From positions 310,001 to 374,000 of the forward strand of contig NZ_JAATJJ010000002.1 of NCBI RefSeq assembly GCF_011927795.1: a stretch of DNA of 64,000 bases, written 5' to 3'. The number at the start of each line of letters is the position of its first letter. Within the stretch, counting starts at the first letter, position 1. The translations under genes were made by a program, and so were the position numbers. This DNA is from Saonia flava. GTDB lineage: Bacteria > Bacteroidota > Bacteroidia > Flavobacteriales > Flavobacteriaceae. Positions 2,925 to 10,586 of this stretch are shown in pieces. Under the pieces are notes generated by a model that worked only from the letters and a program-made list of their open reading frames with translations, ran no database searches and had not been told where the DNA came from.

Positions 2925-2938
2925 TCTTTAACTATTTT
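2918..2938. terminator. Short hairpin at the convergent cytochrome / murQ 3' ends
   Basis: AAAATAGT at 2918-2925 and ACTATTTT at 2931-2938 are perfect inverted repeats around a 5-nt loop, and they overlap both stop codons. The stem is AT-rich and weak. The flanking A and T tracts would let it act in both directions. This is a plausible bidirectional terminator, not a strong one. Confidence 0.4.
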
Positions 2939-3744
2939 AGTGCATCAATTGCCTTTTTAACTGAACCATATTTTATAAGAGCAGCTTCGGCATCTTCATA
3001 ATTTAACTGAAGTTCCTCAATTAAATAGCGAGTTCCCCTGTCAACCAATTTATTGTTGGTCAATTGCATATTTACCATTTTGTTTCCTTTTACCCTACCA
3101 ATTTTAATCATCAGGGTGGTGGAAATCATATTCAATGCCAACTTTTGGGAAGTCCCACTCTTCATACGCGTACTACCGGTAAGAAATTCTGGGCCAACAT
3201 TGATTTCAATGGGAATGTCAACTGCTTGTGACAAGGGAGAACCAGGATTGTTTGTAATGCAGGCCGTTAACAACCCTTTCTTTTTAGCTTCTTGTACGCC
3301 TCCAATCACATAAGGAGTTGTTCCAGAAGCAGCAATCCCTACCACAACATCATTTTCGGATATGTTGTGAGCCAATAAATCCTTCCAAGCCTGTTCCTTA
3401 TTGTCCTCTGCATTCTCAACAGCCTTTCTAATGGCTGAATCTCCCCCGGCAATCAAACCAATGACCCTGTCAAATGGCATTCCAAAAGTAGGTGGGATTT
3501 CAGAAGCATCCAAAATTCCCAATCGGCCACTGGTACCCGCTCCTATATAAAAAAGACGGCCTCCTTTATTGAATCTTTCTGCCAATCCATCAACCAATGT
3601 AGAAATTTGTGGAATTGTTAAAGCAACGGCTTTAGCCACTTTTTCATCTTCCTTGTTCATATTTTGAAGAATAGAAAGGGTATCCATTTTTTCCAAATCA
3701 TTGTGATTAGAAGCTTCTTCGGTTATTTTTTTAAAATTGGTCAT
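2932..3744 (-). CDS. murQ: N-acetylmuramic acid 6-phosphate etherase
   Basis: This 270-residue SIS-domain enzyme cleaves the D-lactyl ether of MurNAc-6-P to give GlcNAc-6-P and D-lactate in cytoplasmic peptidoglycan recycling. Visible signatures are the sugar-phosphate binding segment FYIGAGTSGRLGILDASE around residues 65-82, the following PPTFG, and the GSTRMKSGTSQKLALNMIST block near residues 190-209, all characteristic of MurQ. It is slightly shorter than the usual ~300 residues, because the C-terminal helical domain is abbreviated. It is transcribed behind the DeoR-family regulator gene with a 6-bp gap, so both probably form one operon. The neighbouring anmK, GH3 and nagB genes supply the adjacent steps. 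Confidence 0.95.
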   Translation of the reverse strand: MTNFKKITEEASNHNDLEKMDTLSILQNMNKEDEKVAKAVALTIPQISTLVDGLAERFNKGGRLFYIGAGTSGRLGILDASEIPPTFGMPFDRVIGLIAGGDSAIRKAVENAEDNKEQAWKDLLAHNISENDVVVGIAASGTTPYVIGGVQEAKKKGLLTACITNNPGSPLSQAVDIPIEINVGPEFLTGSTRMKSGTSQKLALNMISTTLMIKIGRVKGNKMVNMQLTNNKLVDRGTRYLIEELQLNYEDAEAALIKYGSVKKAIDALK

Positions 3745-3750
3745 GTAGGC

Positions 3751-4500
3751 TTATAAAAGTTGAATATTTTGGTTTTTTAATGATTTTAATAGTATATCAT
3801 CTGCATCTAACTCCGTAATAATAGTATCTATTGCACTTACATCACATGTTTTGTATCGATGTTGGGAATTCAACTTCTCGGATATAGATAGAAGTATTGT
3901 TTTCTTGGAAGCATTGATCACTGCTTTTTTTACCTGAACTATATCATAATCGAATTCTGTTAGCCCAAATACCGGATCCACATAACCAGTACCAATGAAA
4001 CCGTAATCCACTTTTATATTGGATAGGTTGTGCACGGCATTGGCACCAATACTAATTTGGGCATCCTTGGACAACTGGCCTCCAATAAAAATAACCTCTA
4101 CCTTAGGCTTCTTTAATAATTCCAATGCCACTGGCAAGCTCAATGTAAAGCAAGTAAGTGAAAGTTGGTCCGGCAATTGCGTTGCCAACTCTACACATGT
4201 GGTTCCCCCATCAATAAGAATGACATTGTCATTTTTTAACAGCTTTATGGCTTTTTTTGCAATGGCAACTTTATCCTCCAATCTATAAATATTGGCGTTC
4301 CTTACACTATTATTTATAAAGCCAAGAGCTATAGCTCCTCCATGCACTTTTCTAAGTTTATTTTCAGCATCCAATTCTTTCACATCCCTTCGAATGGTAT
4401 CTATGGACACATCCAAATTTTCGGCTATATCCGTGAGCAGCACCCTATTGTGCAGTGCCACTTCATTTAATATAGTTTTATGCCTTTCTTCCTTAAGCAT
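3751..4500 (-). CDS. DeoR/GlpR-family transcriptional repressor of the amino-sugar locus
   Basis: 249 residues. The N-terminal DeoR winged helix-turn-helix spans about residues 6-58 (HNRVLLTDIAENLDVSIDTI, then RRDVKELD), and the GKLRKVHGGA-like linker follows (here NKLRKVHGGA). The C-terminal DeoRC sensor domain contains LIDGGTTCVELA near residue 97 and IGTGYVDPVFGLTEFD, the sugar-phosphate binding motifs of the family. It is divergent from nagB and followed by murQ. Regulators in this position (AgaR/NagR-like) normally respond to phosphorylated amino sugars, so GlcNAc-6-P or GlcN-6-P is the likely effector. The perfect palindrome at 4581-4612 is its best candidate operator, which would also give autoregulation. 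Ligand and operator are inferred. Confidence 0.9.
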   Translation of the reverse strand: MLKEERHKTILNEVALHNRVLLTDIAENLDVSIDTIRRDVKELDAENKLRKVHGGAIALGFINNSVRNANIYRLEDKVAIAKKAIKLLKNDNVILIDGGTTCVELATQLPDQLSLTCFTLSLPVALELLKKPKVEVIFIGGQLSKDAQISIGANAVHNLSNIKVDYGFIGTGYVDPVFGLTEFDYDIVQVKKAVINASKKTILLSISEKLNSQHRYKTCDVSAIDTIITELDADDILLKSLKNQNIQLL

Positions 4501-4524
4501 TTAATTCAGTTTTATTCAATAAAA

Positions 4525-4532
4525 CAAAGATA
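4525..4532 (-). promoter_or_regulatory. -7 promoter element of the deoR-murQ operon
   Basis: On the minus strand this reads TATCTTTG, a perfect match to the Bacteroidota -7 box TAnnTTTG, 24 nt upstream of the regulator start codon. No clear -33 TTG was seen at the expected distance. The candidate operator lies about 50 bp further upstream. Confidence 0.55.
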
Positions 4533-4580
4533 ACAAAATAATTTAGTTGCCGTTTTATGCTATTTTAATGTTAACATCGT

Positions 4581-4612
4581 GTTATTTAATGCAAAATATT
4601 GCATTAAATAAC
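4581..4612. promoter_or_regulatory. Perfect palindromic operator candidate between deoR and nagB
   Basis: GTTATTTAATGCAA (4581-4594) and TTGCATTAAATAAC (4599-4612) are perfect inverted repeats of 14 bp separated by AATA. A related half-site, ATTAAATAA, recurs at 4629-4637. The palindrome lies in the 170-bp divergent gap, 33 bp upstream of the nagB -7 box, where a dimeric DeoR-family repressor could control both directions. The symmetry is seen directly. Binding by this regulator is inference. Confidence 0.65.
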
Positions 4613-4644
4613 AGCAAAAAACAGCATATATTAAATAATTTGCA

Positions 4645-4652
4645 TACTTTTG
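4645..4652 (+). promoter_or_regulatory. -7 promoter element of nagB
   Basis: TACTTTTG matches the Bacteroidota -7 consensus TAnnTTTG and ends 18 nt before the nagB ATG. The expected -33 region overlaps the ATTAAATAA half-site, so a repressor bound there would block the sigma factor. Confidence 0.6.
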
Positions 4653-4670
4653 CCGTAACAAACAACATAA

Positions 4671-6626
4671 ATGTCCACTATGTCCACAACAACTCTAAAT
4701 CAAACAAACGATCTGTTCCAATTAAAGGAATATGATGAATCCCACAAGTTTGAAAAAATAGCTACAGAAATCTATGATGATTCTGATAAAGCATCACTCT
4801 ATGTGGCCCAGGAAATATCAAAGCTTATTGTTCTAAGACAACAACAGAATAAAAATGTTGTATTGGGATTGGCAACAGGCTCTACCCCTACCAAAGTATA
4901 TGACTTTTTGGTAAAATTCCATAAAGAAGGTCTTAGCTTTAAAAACGTTATCACATTCAACTTAGATGAATATTACCCTATGGAACCAGATTCCATCCAC
5001 AGTTATGTTCGCTTTATGAATGAACATCTTTTTGACCACATTGATGTTGACAAAAAGAACATTCATATTCCCGATGGAACAGTTAATAAAGATAACATTA
5101 GAGAGTTCTGTGATAATTATGAGAAAAAAATAGTTGAGGCTGGTGGAATCGATATTCAAATATTGGGAATTGGTAGAACAGGACATATTGGATTTAACGA
5201 ACCTGGCTCTTCTATTACCAGTAAAACAAGAATCATTAGATTGGACCGAGTAACGCGTTTGGATGCCGCGAGTGACTTCTTTGGTGAAGAAAATGTGCCC
5301 ACTAAAGCCATCACTATGGGTGTTGGAACCATTATGAATGCAAGAAAAGTAATTCTAATGGCATGGGGAGAGGGAAAAGCCAATATCATAAAAGAGTCGG
5401 TTGAAGGAAAAATAAAAGAATCCATCCCTGCGACCTTTTTACAGGAACATCCCAACTGTGATTTCATTCTGGACCAGGCAGCTGCTTCGTCACTTACAAG
5501 AATTAGCACGCCTTGGTTGGTAAGCGAATGTCTATGGACAGACAAACTGATTAAAAAAGCAACTATTTGGCTTTCAGAAAAACTGAACAAAGCCATCCTT
5601 AAATTGACCAATGAGGATTATAACGAATATGGTATGGGGAATTTGGTCGCCGAAATAGGTTCTGCGGAACATATTAATTTAAAGGTTTTTAACCAACTAC
5701 AACATACTATTACCGGATGGCCCGGAGGAAAACCCAATGCCGATGATACCAACAGACCAGAAAGAGCAAATCCAGCAAAGAAAACATCATTGATTTTTAG
5801 CCCACACCCAGATGACGATGTCATTTCCATGGGAGGCACGCTACTGCGATTGGTAGACCAAGGACACAATGTGCATGTAGCCTATCAAACTTCTGGGAAC
5901 ATTGCCGTGTTTGATGATGAAGTCATCCGTTTTATGGAATTTGCCCGGGAAGCCCAAAAAGACAACCCAGAAATTCAGGCTCAAGTTAAAAAAGTACGTG
6001 AGTTCTTAAAGAACAAAAGACCAGGGCAGGTAGATAGCCATGAAATTCAACAGTTTAAAGGATTGATTAGAAAAGGAGAAGCTTTGGCCGCATGTAGATA
6101 TTGTGGGGTGAAGGAGGAAAATGCACACTTTCAAAACCTACCCTTCTATGAGACGGGAACGGTAAAGAAAAAACCGTATTCGGATGCGGATATCCAAATC
6201 ACCTATGACTTGTTGAACAAAGTAAAGCCACATCAAATTTTTGCTGCGGGTGACCTTTCTGACCCACATGGAACGCACCGAGTATGTTTACAAGTAATAT
6301 ACAAAGCCTTGGAGCGATTGGTGGAAGATGGTGCCGAATGGTTAAAAGATTGCTATGTATGGCTTTACCGTGGCGCTTGGCAGGAATGGGACATTTCCGA
6401 TATGGAAATGACCATCCCAATTGGTCCAAAAGATATGGCCAGAAAGAAAAATGCCATATTTAAGCACCAATCACAAAAAGATGCCGCCATGTTTCCAGGA
6501 AATGATGAACGTGAATTTTGGCAACGTGCAGAGCAACGTAATAAAGAAACGGCAAGAAAATACAATGCCCTAGGATTGGCAGAGTATGAGGCTATGGAAG
6601 GATTTGTTCGTTACAAATTCAATTAA
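4671..6626 (+). CDS. nagB: Glucosamine-6-phosphate deaminase fused to a PIG-L/LmbE-type deacetylase
   Basis: 651 residues with two domains. Residues ~30-290 are a NagB-type isomerase/deaminase: LGLATGSTPTKVY near 65-77, FNLDEYYPM with the catalytic Asp99, GHIGFNEPGSS with His172 and Glu177. Residues ~375-640 are a PIG-L-type Zn deacetylase with SPHPDDDVISMGGTL (Zn-binding HPDD) and the distal PHGTHRVC motif. A C-terminal fusion of this kind is common in Bacteroidota. It could deacetylate GlcNAc-6-P and then deaminate GlcN-6-P to Fru-6-P plus ammonia. No nagA is present in the window, which fits that reading but does not prove it. Thr170 replaces the Asp that precedes GHI in E. coli NagB (Asp141). 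A second in-frame ATG at 4680 is an alternative start. Confidence 0.9.
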   Translation: MSTMSTTTLNQTNDLFQLKEYDESHKFEKIATEIYDDSDKASLYVAQEISKLIVLRQQQNKNVVLGLATGSTPTKVYDFLVKFHKEGLSFKNVITFNLDEYYPMEPDSIHSYVRFMNEHLFDHIDVDKKNIHIPDGTVNKDNIREFCDNYEKKIVEAGGIDIQILGIGRTGHIGFNEPGSSITSKTRIIRLDRVTRLDAASDFFGEENVPTKAITMGVGTIMNARKVILMAWGEGKANIIKESVEGKIKESIPATFLQEHPNCDFILDQAAASSLTRISTPWLVSECLWTDKLIKKATIWLSEKLNKAILKLTNEDYNEYGMGNLVAEIGSAEHINLKVFNQLQHTITGWPGGKPNADDTNRPERANPAKKTSLIFSPHPDDDVISMGGTLLRLVDQGHNVHVAYQTSGNIAVFDDEVIRFMEFAREAQKDNPEIQAQVKKVREFLKNKRPGQVDSHEIQQFKGLIRKGEALAACRYCGVKEENAHFQNLPFYETGTVKKKPYSDADIQITYDLLNKVKPHQIFAAGDLSDPHGTHRVCLQVIYKALERLVEDGAEWLKDCYVWLYRGAWQEWDISDMEMTIPIGPKDMARKKNAIFKHQSQKDAAMFPGNDEREFWQRAEQRNKETARKYNALGLAEYEAMEGFVRYKFN

Positions 6627-6645: not shown

Positions 6646-6680
6646 AAAAGGCATATTTTTAAAGAAAATATGCCTTTTTT
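6646..6680 (+). terminator. Intrinsic terminator after nagB
   Basis: AAAAGGCATATTTT (6646-6659) pairs perfectly with AAAATATGCCTTTT (6665-6678) around a 5-nt loop and runs into a T tract. It lies between the nagB stop and the transporter ATG at 6700, so it should reduce or uncouple expression of the downstream transporter-GH3-anmK genes. Confidence 0.85.
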
Positions 6681-6699: not shown

Positions 6700-7974
6700 A
6701 TGATAAAAAAAGATAAATGGGCCTGGGCTTGGGTGCCAGTCTTGTATTTTACCCAGGGTATGCCTTATGTCCTCATAGTAATGGTCTCCGTTATTATGTA
6801 CAAAAGACTTGGAATAAGCAATGCAGATATAGGGCTGTACACCAGTTGGCTCTATTTACCTTGGGTGTTAAAACCTTTATGGAGTCCGTTTGTAGATTTA
6901 AAAAGTACCAAAAGAAACTGGTTTTTGGGCATGCAATTGCTCATTTCCATAGCACTTTTAGGCGTTGGTCTTTCCTTGCCCACCAATTCATTTTTCATTA
7001 CTTCTTTGGCCTGTTTTTGGATGGCCGCCTTTGCATCGGCTACCAATGATATAGCATCAGACGGGTATTATATGCTCGGCCTAACAGAAAAAAAACAATC
7101 CTTTTTTGTGGGCATGCGCAGTACTTTTTACCGCCTGGCCATGGTTACAGGAGAAGGGCTGATTGTGATTGTTGCCGGGTTTTTGGAAAATAAATACGGG
7201 GACAATACCAAGGCATGGTCACTCACCATGGTCTGCACGGCATTTTTAATGCTGATTCTTACGGTTTCCAACTTCTTTATAACCCCAAAATTTGAATCCT
7301 CACAAGAGATAGCAAAGAACAAACCAAAAGGGTTTGGAGATGTGTTCCTTTCCTTTTTTAACAAACCGGGAATTGGTATTGCCTTGGCCTTTATCTTATG
7401 CTACCGTTTGGGGGAATCACAATTGGTAAAAATGGCCGCCCCTTTTATGTTGGATGAAACCGCAAAAGGTGGATTGGGATACTCAACGGAAAAGATAGGA
7501 ACCATTTTTGGCACCGTTGGGGTTATTATGCTCTCTATTGGGGGAATTTTAGGAGGGATTTTGATTTCTAGGGACGGACTAAAAAAATGGATGTTACCCA
7601 TGATACTTTCCCTCAATATCCCCAATATTCTATATGCCCTTTTGGCCTTCACCAAAACCACCAATATTGTTGCTGTGACGGCAACCGTCATCTTTGAAAA
7701 ATTTGGCTACGGCTTTGGCTTTGCGGCCTTTCTTATGTACCTCATCTATATTGCCGATGGAAAATCCAAAACTTCCCATTATGCCATCGCAACAGGTTTT
7801 ATGGCCTTGGGTATGATGATACCGGGAATGGTAAGTGGCTACATTCAAGAATGGTTAGGATATTCAGGTTTTTTTATTTGGGTGGTGATTGCTGCCCTAC
7901 CCGCCATTTTTCTTTTAAAATACATTACCTACCCTGCCGATTTTGGTAAAAAATCCAAGCCCGAAAATGAGTAA
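6700..7974 (+). CDS. AmpG-like MFS permease, probable muropeptide/amino-sugar importer
   Basis: 424 residues with about 12 hydrophobic segments of the major facilitator superfamily. The N-terminal part resembles AmpG permeases: YFTQGMPYVLIVMVSVIMYKRLG, then IGLYTSWLYLPWVLKPLWSPFVD, and ASATNDIASDGYYM around residues 110-123. AmpG proteins import GlcNAc-anhydroMurNAc muropeptides. The gene overlaps the next one (NagZ-like) by 8 bp and is followed by anmK, which agrees with import of cell-wall turnover products. The exact substrate (disaccharide, anhydroMurNAc or GlcNAc) cannot be told. Translation of the GH3 gene is likely coupled to it. Confidence 0.85.
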   Translation: MIKKDKWAWAWVPVLYFTQGMPYVLIVMVSVIMYKRLGISNADIGLYTSWLYLPWVLKPLWSPFVDLKSTKRNWFLGMQLLISIALLGVGLSLPTNSFFITSLACFWMAAFASATNDIASDGYYMLGLTEKKQSFFVGMRSTFYRLAMVTGEGLIVIVAGFLENKYGDNTKAWSLTMVCTAFLMLILTVSNFFITPKFESSQEIAKNKPKGFGDVFLSFFNKPGIGIALAFILCYRLGESQLVKMAAPFMLDETAKGGLGYSTEKIGTIFGTVGVIMLSIGGILGGILISRDGLKKWMLPMILSLNIPNILYALLAFTKTTNIVAVTATVIFEKFGYGFGFAAFLMYLIYIADGKSKTSHYAIATGFMALGMMIPGMVSGYIQEWLGYSGFFIWVVIAALPAIFLLKYITYPADFGKKSKPENE

Positions 7975-9511
7975 GTCCCTTCCCTATTCCAAAGCAAAAG
8001 ATATCTTAAACTTAAAGGAAAAAGTGGGGCAGTTTTTTATGCCCGCAGCTTTCATCAACGATACAGAAGAAGAGGTCCAGTTCATAGAAAATCTCATCCA
8101 AGAGCACCATATTGGCGGACTTTGCTTTTTTCATAGCCGTGCTAGTGCCGCTACCAATTTTGAAGGCAAAAAAACAGTGGTTTACAATGAACAAAGTTTT
8201 GACACCTTAAAGAGACTTATAAATAGATACCAGAAAGTATCCAAGCACCCCTTATTGATAAGTATTGATGCCGAATGGGGTTTGGCGATGCGGATTGAAA
8301 ACACCCCACAATACCCCTATGCCATAACATTGGGGGCCATCCAAAACAATACAGATTTACTGTATGAGGTAGGAAAAAACATTGCTAAAGATTGTAAGTT
8401 GATAGGCATCCATTGGAACCTCTCCCCTGTTGTAGACATTAACAACAATCCCTTGAATCCCGTTATAGGATATCGTTCTTTTGGTGAATATAAAAACAAA
8501 GTGGTAGAGAAGGCCAGAGCCTTTATTTCAGGAACAAAAAGCGAAGGTGTTTTAACTTCCATTAAGCATTTTCCAGGGCATGGCGATACGGGGACCGATT
8601 CCCATTTGGGACTTCCCGTGATTGAAAAATCCATAGAAGAACTCTGGGATAATGAATTGTTTCCTTTTAGGGAACTCATTAATGAAGAAGAGGTGGATTC
8701 TGTTATGGTAGGTCATTTGGCTGTTCCTGCATTGAGCCAAGGCAAGAAAGTACCTGCTACCATTTCCAAGGACATTATCACAGGAGTTTTACGAACCAAA
8801 CTGGGCTTTAAGGGAGTTGTTATTACCGATGCCCTAAATATGCACAGCGTTTCCAAAATGTTTCCTATAAAAGGGGAATTGGAATGGGCAGCTTTTGATG
8901 CTGGAAATGACCTGCTCTGCTTTACCGAAAATGTTCCAGAAGGAATTGAAACCATCCAAAAAAAAGCTACCCAAACTACTATTGAGGAAGCTTTTGAACG
9001 CGTGTGGAAACTCAAGCAAAAAGCCTTTTCCAATCCTTTGCCCACCTGTCAGGAATTAACAACACCAGAAACCCTAAACAAAAAGTTGGCAGAGAATAGT
9101 CTTACCCTTTTTCAAGGTAGTGAAGAGGCCCTCTCCGATTTTAAAAAAGAAGGGTTCCTTAAAGTAGCTTTAGGAAAAGAAGTGGAAAATCATTTTTTTA
9201 GATTAATTACAGATGAAACCCTGCATACCAACAATGTTTTAGTGGCATTGTTTCCTCCCAAAATAAAACCCAAGGATAATTTTGAAATTCCAGAACCTGA
9301 CCTAAAAAAATTAAAAGAACTATTGGATACCAAAAATGTGGTGCTTTATCTTTTTGGAAATCCCTATGTGCTAAATATTCTTAATTATAAGAAAGCCAAA
9401 GTAGTCGTGATTGCCTACCAAGATTTTAAAGTTTTTCAGGAAAATGCCGCCTACCATTTTTTGGATAAAATAGTAGCAAAAGGAGAATTACCAGTAACCA
9501 TACACTCATAA
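7967..9511 (+). CDS. Glycoside hydrolase family 3, NagZ-like beta-N-acetylglucosaminidase
   Basis: 514 residues from the ATG at 7967, which overlaps the transporter stop in ATGAGTAA. A TTG 24 nt upstream is possible but less likely. The GH3 N-terminal barrel carries the NagZ hallmark loop KHFPGHGDTGTDSH (residues ~200-213), whose His-Asp dyad is the unusual acid/base of NagZ enzymes, and the nucleophile Asp288 in VVITDALNM. A shorter, divergent C-terminal region follows. There is no signal peptide, so it is cytoplasmic, as NagZ is. It would remove GlcNAc from GlcNAc-anhydroMurNAc (peptides), giving substrates for AnmK and the NagB fusion. Confidence 0.88.
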   Translation: MSKSLPYSKAKDILNLKEKVGQFFMPAAFINDTEEEVQFIENLIQEHHIGGLCFFHSRASAATNFEGKKTVVYNEQSFDTLKRLINRYQKVSKHPLLISIDAEWGLAMRIENTPQYPYAITLGAIQNNTDLLYEVGKNIAKDCKLIGIHWNLSPVVDINNNPLNPVIGYRSFGEYKNKVVEKARAFISGTKSEGVLTSIKHFPGHGDTGTDSHLGLPVIEKSIEELWDNELFPFRELINEEEVDSVMVGHLAVPALSQGKKVPATISKDIITGVLRTKLGFKGVVITDALNMHSVSKMFPIKGELEWAAFDAGNDLLCFTENVPEGIETIQKKATQTTIEEAFERVWKLKQKAFSNPLPTCQELTTPETLNKKLAENSLTLFQGSEEALSDFKKEGFLKVALGKEVENHFFRLITDETLHTNNVLVALFPPKIKPKDNFEIPEPDLKKLKELLDTKNVVLYLFGNPYVLNILNYKKAKVVVIAYQDFKVFQENAAYHFLDKIVAKGELPVTIHS

Positions 9512-9512
9512 C

Positions 9513-10586
9513 ATGAAAATGCACAAGGTTTTAGGGTTAATGTCGGGTACCTCGTTAGATGGGTTGGATCTTGCCTATTGCAATATTTGGGAAAGCAACA
9601 ACAAATGGCACTTCTCCATAGCGGACACCCATAGTGTCTCTTATGATGCCGCCATGCGTTCCAAATTAAAGAATGCCATTACTTTACCAGCCGAAGAACT
9701 CTTTGTCCTTAATAACTCTTATGGCACTTGGTTGGGAGAACAGGCCAAAGCCTTTATAAATCAAAAAAAAATGGAGGTAGATTTTATTTCCAGTCATGGA
9801 CATACCGTACACCACCGACCCGAAAAGGGCCTTACCTACCAAATGGGCTCTGGACAGCATTTGGCCAATGCAAGCGGACATACCACCATTTGTGATTTTA
9901 GGACCAATGATGTGGCATTGGGAGGTCAGGGAGCACCTTTAGTACCTATTGGGGACAGGATTTTCTTTGGCGATTATGATTTTTGCCTGAATCTGGGTGG
10001 CATTAGTAACATTTCCTTTGAGCATAACGGAAAACGGGTAGCCTATGACATTGGGCTTGCCAATATGGTCTTGAACTATATTACCCAAAAAATAGATTTG
10101 GCGTACGACAAAGATGGTGCGCTAGCAAAAACTGGCTCTCTAAATATTGATTTGTTACATAGACTAAATGCGTTGGACTATTACAAACTGCCCTTTCCAA
10201 AATCTACGGGCTATGAATGGTTTATGGAAAAAGTAGTGCCATTAGTAGAAGGAACGGAAGACAGTATAGAAAACTTGTTACATACCTGTATTCATCATAT
10301 ATGTGAACAACTGGCCATACAGGTAAAAGAGCATACCTATAAAAAAAGTACACTCTGGGTTACTGGGGGTGGGGCTTTAAATGGTTTTTTAATACAAACA
10401 CTACAGGAAAAATTGGGTGCTGATGTACAGGTAATAAAGCCTCCGCCTACCCTTATAGAGTTTAAGGAAGCCTTGGTTTTTGCTCTAATGGGTGTATTGC
10501 GAATGGAAAGAAAAACCAATGTATTATGCTCGGTTACGGGTGCCAAAAGGGATTCTAGTAGTGGGGTGAAGTTTTTACCTCATTAA
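9513..10586 (+). CDS. anmK: Anhydro-N-acetylmuramic acid kinase
   Basis: 357 residues with the ATPase-type motif LGLMSGTSLDGLDLAYC at the N-terminus, HGHTVHHRP near residue 95, the FRTNDVALGGQGAPLVPIGD block and CLNLGGISNIS, all diagnostic of AnmK. It phosphorylates 1,6-anhydroMurNAc with ring opening to MurNAc-6-P, the substrate of MurQ encoded 5.8 kb away on the other strand. Only one base separates it from the GH3 gene, so it is in the same transcript. It ends the recycling cluster, and the next gene is an unrelated symporter. Confidence 0.95.
   Translation: MKMHKVLGLMSGTSLDGLDLAYCNIWESNNKWHFSIADTHSVSYDAAMRSKLKNAITLPAEELFVLNNSYGTWLGEQAKAFINQKKMEVDFISSHGHTVHHRPEKGLTYQMGSGQHLANASGHTTICDFRTNDVALGGQGAPLVPIGDRIFFGDYDFCLNLGGISNISFEHNGKRVAYDIGLANMVLNYITQKIDLAYDKDGALAKTGSLNIDLLHRLNALDYYKLPFPKSTGYEWFMEKVVPLVEGTEDSIENLLHTCIHHICEQLAIQVKEHTYKKSTLWVTGGGALNGFLIQTLQEKLGADVQVIKPPPTLIEFKEALVFALMGVLRMERKTNVLCSVTGAKRDSSSGVKFLPH

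Follow-up and report, generated by a model that had tools for sequence, protein, structure and literature searches.

What purpose is served by a long, perfect palindrome in the gap between a DeoR-family regulator gene and a divergent nagB gene of Saonia flava? The window, a stretch of 64,000 nucleotides (contig NZ_JAATJJ010000002.1, positions 310,001 to 374,000), had been given a first-pass annotation in which this palindrome was the operator of the adjacent DeoR. That an operator region for this regulator lies in the gap is very likely right, and the palindrome coincides with one of the sites; the reading of the whole palindrome as operator is not supported. We consider it likely that the gap holds the promoters and operators through which a local DeoR-family repressor controls both its own gene and nagB, the operators being direct repeats in helical phase.

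The peptidoglycan-recycling locus

The gap is 170 bp long in the window and separates two divergent runs of genes, deoR-murQ leftward and nagB-PIG-L, ampG-like, nagZ-like GH3 and anmK rightward:

2932..3744 (-), murQ, N-acetylmuramic acid 6-phosphate etherase; TIGR00274, 316.4 bits against a cut-off of 302; starts 6 bp after deoR
3751..4500 (-), DeoR-family regulator of 249 aa; Pfam HTH_DeoR (PF08220) 2.1e-13, DeoRC (PF00455) 8.6e-40
4671..6626 (+), fusion of nagB and a PIG-L deacetylase-like domain; NF002557, 1069 bits against a cut-off of 384; PF01182, PF02585
6700..7974 (+), ampG-like muropeptide transporter; TIGR00901, 196.9 bits, under the cut-off of 350; MFS_1
7943..9511 (+), nagZ-like glycoside hydrolase family 3 protein; PF00933; PRK05337, 150.3 bits, under the cut-off of 207
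9513..10586 (+), anmK, anhydro-N-acetylmuramic acid kinase; NF007144, 508 bits against a cut-off of 436

One genome per species was scanned for relatives of the regulator (84,980 species). This gave 216 relatives, of which the best 80 were kept, all at least 69% identical to the window's regulator and belonging to Maribacter, Zobellia, Allomuricauda, Flagellimonas, Croceivirga and other Flavobacteriaceae. Among these best 80 of 216, murQ follows deoR in 79 loci and a divergent nagB is found in 79, the exceptions (L071 and L042, respectively) being contig ends. The stretches examined also contain ampG in 61, nagZ in 63 and anmK in 59 of the 80 loci. The arrangement of deoR-murQ beside divergent nagB, with ampG, nagZ and anmK, is that of a conserved peptidoglycan-recycling locus.

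Conserved direct-repeat sites in the gap

We compared 80 gaps, those of 79 relatives and of the window; L042 was left out, its contig stopping before nagB, and only the last 300 bp of the 1161-bp gap of L067 were analysed. On the deoR strand of these gaps, 175 pairs of TGC are spaced by 10 bp and 129 by 22 bp, where shuffles would give 7.2 and 7.4. The top 21-bp motif from 150 random starts was TTGCtGTTTTtTGC with a T-rich tail, obtained in a search with a fixed number of sites; a free EM search drifted to poly-A. The conserved element is a 13-bp direct-repeat site, TGCNGTTTTTTGC, with TGC every 10 bp. It was described by a matrix of 13 positions, which started from the consensus and was trained on the same gaps in which its sites are counted. 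Direct repeats with a period of about 10-11 bp are the kind of operator published for RhaR members. The window has three such candidate operators and a possible fourth:

4614..4626 (-), candidate operator O1, TGCTGTTTTTTGC on the deoR strand; matrix score 21.4 (maximum 22.3)
4591..4603 (-), candidate operator O2, TGCAATATTTTGC, the palindrome core; matrix score 14.3; 23 bp from O1
4548..4560 (+), candidate operator O3, TGCCGTTTTATGC, inverted relative to O1 and O2; matrix score 21.4; 43 bp from O2
4641..4653 (+), possible fourth site, TGCATACTTTTGC; matrix score 13.4

TGC-N7-TGC is present on the deoR strand in all 80 gaps, and two copies stand 21-23 bp apart in 74. By the matrix, a tandem with this spacing occurs in 76 of the 80; ten rounds of shuffling gave no such gap in 80, except for a single one in one round. 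Sites scoring at least 20 number 100 in 16.7 kb inside the 79 relatives' gaps (5.99 per kb) compared with 5 in 1.23 Mb outside them (0.0041 per kb). Kinship among the genomes inflates counts of all these kinds. The third, inverted copy, O3, stands before deoR in most gaps; of the 76 with a tandem, L090, L097 and L102 lack it. O2 is absent from four of the 80 gaps (L037, L038, L039 and L053), all of one clade. In the window, O2 scores far below O1 and O3.

Promoters and helical phasing

Promoters of Bacteroidetes have a -7 consensus, TAnnTTTG, and an element at the -33 position. The gap contains two -7 boxes, each at a near-constant spacing in relatives from the neighbouring site:

4645..4652 (+), nagB -7 box, TACTTTTG, of the Bacteroidetes type; spacing to O1
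4525..4532 (-), deoR -7 box, TATCTTTG; spacing to O3

The nagB box and O1 are 25-27 bp apart in 67 of 76 gaps; in 8 the distance is 16-17 bp, and in one no box was found. O3 and the deoR box are 27-29 bp apart in 67 of 77 gaps. At these distances O1 would stand at the expected -33 element of nagB and O3 at that of deoR, places which suit a repressor. A scan with sigma-70 promoter and terminator models, the former ill-suited to this phylum, found no excess over shuffles. A further half-site beside the nagB -7 box, also reported in the first-pass annotation, does exist as the possible fourth site, which overlaps that box. Its position scores at least 7 in 42 of 76 tandem gaps, and it may be nothing beyond the -7 box itself.

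The distance from O1 to O2 is 22 bp in 65 of the 76 tandem gaps, 21 bp in six and 23 bp in five. The distance from O2 to O3 falls into classes, with nothing between them: among 73 gaps it is 42 bp (20 gaps) or 43 bp (20) in 40, 52 bp (12) or 53 bp (20) in 32, and 75 bp in one, which is about 4, 5 and 7 turns at 10.5 bp. We also let the promoter set the place of O3, at 27-29 bp upstream of the deoR -7 box, in the 74 of 80 gaps that could be scored (six fell out). A site scoring at least 7 was found there in 67, every one of them 42, 43, 52, 53 or 75 bp from O2, and no site in seven (L030, L058, L072, L086, L090, L097 and L102). On a tree of DeoR and MurQ (quick search; 79 rows, 71 with a spacing state; L071 left out, having no murQ in the stretch examined), there are at least seven switches between the spacing classes. 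This minimum falls to six without L058, which is ambiguous with two O3 calls ten bases apart, and is also six for the 65 rows in which the promoter sets O3. From the quantised spacing and the repeated switches, it looks as if the helix face matters for O2 and O3. The naturally occurring spacings of 42/43, 52/53 and 75 bp offer a test of helical phasing, already laid out by evolution, for an operator of the DeoR family.

The same sites could be read differently, with DeoR activating nagB from a class II position and repressing its own gene. O1 is centred some 25 bp before the -7 box, a distance that hardly varies, and such a placement would also suit an activator; an activator of the L-fucose operon is among the DeoR-family models. 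However, O3 is similarly placed before deoR, which fits repression of both genes, and members of the DeoR family are repressors for the most part. We regard activation of nagB as rather unlikely.

The palindrome as a probable elaboration of O2

The palindrome covers O2:

4580..4613 (.), perfect palindrome with 15-bp arms (4580-4594 and 4599-4613) and spacer AATA; in our reading a lineage-specific elaboration of O2

The first-pass annotation had described 14-bp arms, GTTATTTAATGCAA (4581-4594) and TTGCATTAAATAAC (4599-4612), with a 4-bp spacer. These are present, and the pairing runs one base further on each side. Its statement that the symmetry exceeds what AT-richness explains is correct for this one gap: in 3000 dinucleotide-preserving shuffles of the 170 bp, with spacers of up to 8, a 14-bp arm appeared once and a 15-bp arm never, well beyond chance. 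It does not carry over to the genome, where thousands of gaps make about one such palindrome by chance unsurprising, as estimated from the shuffle rate. The window has two more perfect palindromes whose arms reach at least 12 bp, both terminator-like (A-run, stem, T-run). The 80 relative loci (1.26 Mb) hold 18 with arms of at least 14 bp, and 14 of the 18 begin with AAAA and end with TTTT.

The annotated operator was recovered neither elsewhere in the genome nor, with arms of 14 bp, in front of the orthologous nagB and deoR genes of the 79 relatives. A search of the 3.8-Mb genome with the inner 13-bp arms, allowing up to 3 mismatches, found the palindrome to be unique. Among the 80 gaps, arms longer than 10 bp occur in the window alone; the longest perfect arm is 15 bp there, 10 bp in L029, 8 bp in two gaps and at most 7 bp in the others. 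The core TGCAA-N2-4-TTGCA is confined to three of the 80 gaps (window, L027 and L029). In the sister species L027, whose DeoR is 89% identical, TGCAATTTATTGCA is kept and the outer arms are not; its core at O2 is TGCAA-N4-TTGCA. A long inverted repeat conserved before orthologues, which would mark a dyad-symmetric operator, was thus not found in these gaps. The best reading of the window's palindrome is an O2 whose AT-rich flanks appear to have turned symmetric in one lineage alone.

Could the 14/15-bp palindrome nevertheless be a dyad operator itself, bound by a symmetric DeoR dimer? Its symmetry is perfect, with arms of at least 14 bp in only 1 of 3000 shuffles, it lies in the right gap and contains O2, and at O2 L027 and L029 retain TGCAA-N4-TTGCA or something very near it. 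Against this, a palindrome of such length is missing in all 79 relatives, where arms reach 10 bp at most, which rules it out as a conserved operator. The outer arms diverge even in the sister with the 89% identical DeoR, and direct repeats explain the conservation of all three sites. A dyad operator is therefore improbable, and the case teaches that an eye-catching palindrome can mark the right spot for the wrong reason.

The regulator and its link to the sites

The regulator has the N-terminal DeoR-type HTH and the C-terminal DeoRC sensor of the DeoR/GlpR family, both Pfam matches being over the cut-off. It has no counterpart of the RpiR-type HTH and SIS domain of MurR; its Pfam matches are DeoRC, HTH_DeoR and HTH_11 only. 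None of the ten NCBIfam models listed for comparison, among them haloarchaeal GlpR, AgaR, UlaR, SrlR, YgbI, DeoR and the fucose activator, assigned it to a named DeoR subfamily: the best score was 164.8 bits against a cut-off of 300, and AgaR gave 113.2 bits against 260. Among solved structures there was one match, to the sensor domain of a deoxyribose operon repressor (1.9e-08). At E 0.001 its own genome holds one protein of this kind and no second.

The tandem in a strict form turned up in 15 of 397 family genomes, each time between nagB and this deoR. This count excludes the pairs of the window and its sister, which are too imperfect for the pattern, and the family genomes overlap with the best-80 set (G001 and L027, for example, are the same genome), so that the two sets are not independent. 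TGC pairs at 10 bp also stand before five of eight DeoR paralogues of 37-57% identity (L020, L009, L010, L012 and L021) and not before L022, L011 and L023; 17 pairs were counted on both strands, against 1.1 in shuffles. The neighbours of the paralogues are unlike those of the peptidoglycan locus, and in L012 and L021 include an acetyltransferase-like membrane protein, NagX-like as judged by eye. Before DeoRs of less than 33% identity, TGC-N7-TGC is missing in nine of ten, L014 having one (1 pair against 0.6 in shuffles).

These results bear on whether the sites serve another regulator and merely adjoin deoR. Position alone led to the operator class, and the assignment to DeoR is a prediction, which leaves room for such a regulator. 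We think it very unlikely, since the strict tandem matches adjoin this deoR in 15 of 15 cases and like repeats precede five of eight paralogous deoR genes in different contexts. The chance expectation for a genome and the missing outer arms of the sister species would also allow the palindrome to be a roleless AT-rich feature or an RNA hairpin (terminator or attenuator), but this can be practically dismissed, as the palindrome lies upstream of both -7 boxes and would be transcribed by neither promoter, on which ground a hairpin was rejected, and its core is a conserved operator position.

The first-pass annotation further had the regulator coupling peptidoglycan recycling and amino-sugar use. 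Genes of both kinds are indeed its neighbours; the wider switch was not upheld. In its own genome, TGCNRTNTTWTGC has 13 matches (5 for the reversed control pattern), three of them in this gap. Nine of the other ten are inside coding frames and one lies between helicase-like and oxidoreductase-like genes, as judged by eye. A wider regulon was rejected, the sites clustering in this gap only, and from this clustering and the nine matches in coding frames the regulator looks local rather than a wider amino-sugar switch. Sites scoring at least 16 outside the gaps number 30 in the 79 loci, 25 of them inside frames of at least 100 aa; the noncoding ones include a site common to L061, L081 and L098, described below.

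Proposed mechanism and comparison with known systems

In the autoregulated repressor model, the regulator, probably oligomeric, would recognise 13-bp direct repeats of TGC-N7-TGC with a period of about one helical turn. It would sit on O1-O2 and on O3, on the same face of the helix; O2, the middle site, is separated by about two turns from O1 and by four or five from O3, and a short loop is conceivable. From O1 over the presumed -33 of nagB and the inverted O3 over that of deoR, it would repress both promoters until freed by a sugar phosphate from the cell wall, for which MurNAc-6-P, GlcNAc-6-P and GlcN-6-P are candidates. More tentatively, a DeoR-family oligomer bridging O1-O2 and the inverted O3 over four or five whole turns might form a very short repression loop shared by the divergent promoters, in which whole turns were repeatedly gained or lost and the face kept; with the window's O2 made symmetric, the complex could also bind head to head. 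We regard this extension as possible but less likely than not.

For peptidoglycan recycling in Flavobacteriaceae, the model names a specific regulator and the operators that go with it, a pairing open to experiment. In E. coli, murQ is controlled by MurR, a repressor of the RpiR family. Like MurR, the regulator here is a predicted repressor beside murQ, presumably answering a cell-wall sugar phosphate; unlike MurR, it belongs to the DeoR family. We found no regulator of these peptidoglycan-recycling genes in the open-licence literature, and the excerpted text of one source mentions, among regulators, RhaR only (PMC13209645). As far as that literature shows, the regulator, the site sequence and the target set are new and the kind of operator is already known.

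The published motifs of RhaR are two imperfect direct repeats with a 10-11 bp period (PMC3870299). RhaR is likewise a local DeoR-family regulator of a sugar pathway, whereas here the repeat is TGC-N7-TGC, the targets are peptidoglycan-recycling genes and three phased sites lie between divergent promoters. The murT-murK-murQ-ampG cluster of Tannerella forsythia, a single transcriptional unit, also comprises Bacteroidetes peptidoglycan-recycling genes, including those for AmpG and MurQ, and the text describing it uses neither of the terms repressor and operator (PMC7670621). DeoR and CggR of Bacillus subtilis bind as tetramers to operators of 39-45 bp in two halves, with palindromes and direct repeats; they are of the SorC family, unlike the DeoR-family regulator here (PMC11229326). 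NanR controls sialic acid and GlcNAc use in Bacteroides, and so shares amino-sugar control and the phylum with the present case, but is of the ROK family, and the word 'DeoR' is missing from the main text of that source (PMC3878776).

Other features of the locus

In the window's genome no match passed the cut-off of TIGR00221 (nagA), there being six partial matches with a best score of 35 bits; 7 of 14 control genomes passed it. The PIG-L-like domain of the nagB fusion might be a source of GlcNAc-6-P deacetylation.

A hairpin, AAAAGGCATATTTT/AAAATATGCCTTTT, with a T tail lies at 6646-6678 between nagB and ampG in the window. Among 79 loci, the window counted, 27 have a hairpin with arms of at least 10 bp 3' of nagB, which hints at an attenuated operon. 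No TAnnTTTG box was noticed by eye between nagB and ampG in the window, and from this and the T-tailed hairpin, ampG may be reached by partial read-through from nagB. The distance from nagB to ampG exceeds 1.2 kb in 53 of the 61 loci having both genes. In L041 the intervening gene (4207-5739), which is absent from the window, encodes a 510-aa lipoprotein, judged by eye to be a GH10-like (DUF187) glycosidase.

Three loci of Allomuricauda or Flagellimonas (L061, L081 and L098), with no ampG within the stretch examined, share a noncoding TGCAATTTTTTGC near 4945-4990, about 3 kb from deoR, which is perhaps a further target. In L009, where a RidA-like gene and the deoR paralogue face each other with their 3' ends, a perfect palindrome with 23-bp arms and no spacer (about 1450-1498) lies in between and may be a two-way terminator.

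Across L027-L106, identity of the nagB fusion to that of the window falls into two groups, 55-59% (50 loci) and 75-86% (29 loci). The deoR identities, 69-79% plus one of 89%, show no such split. This difference would fit an exchange of nagB in some of the lineages.
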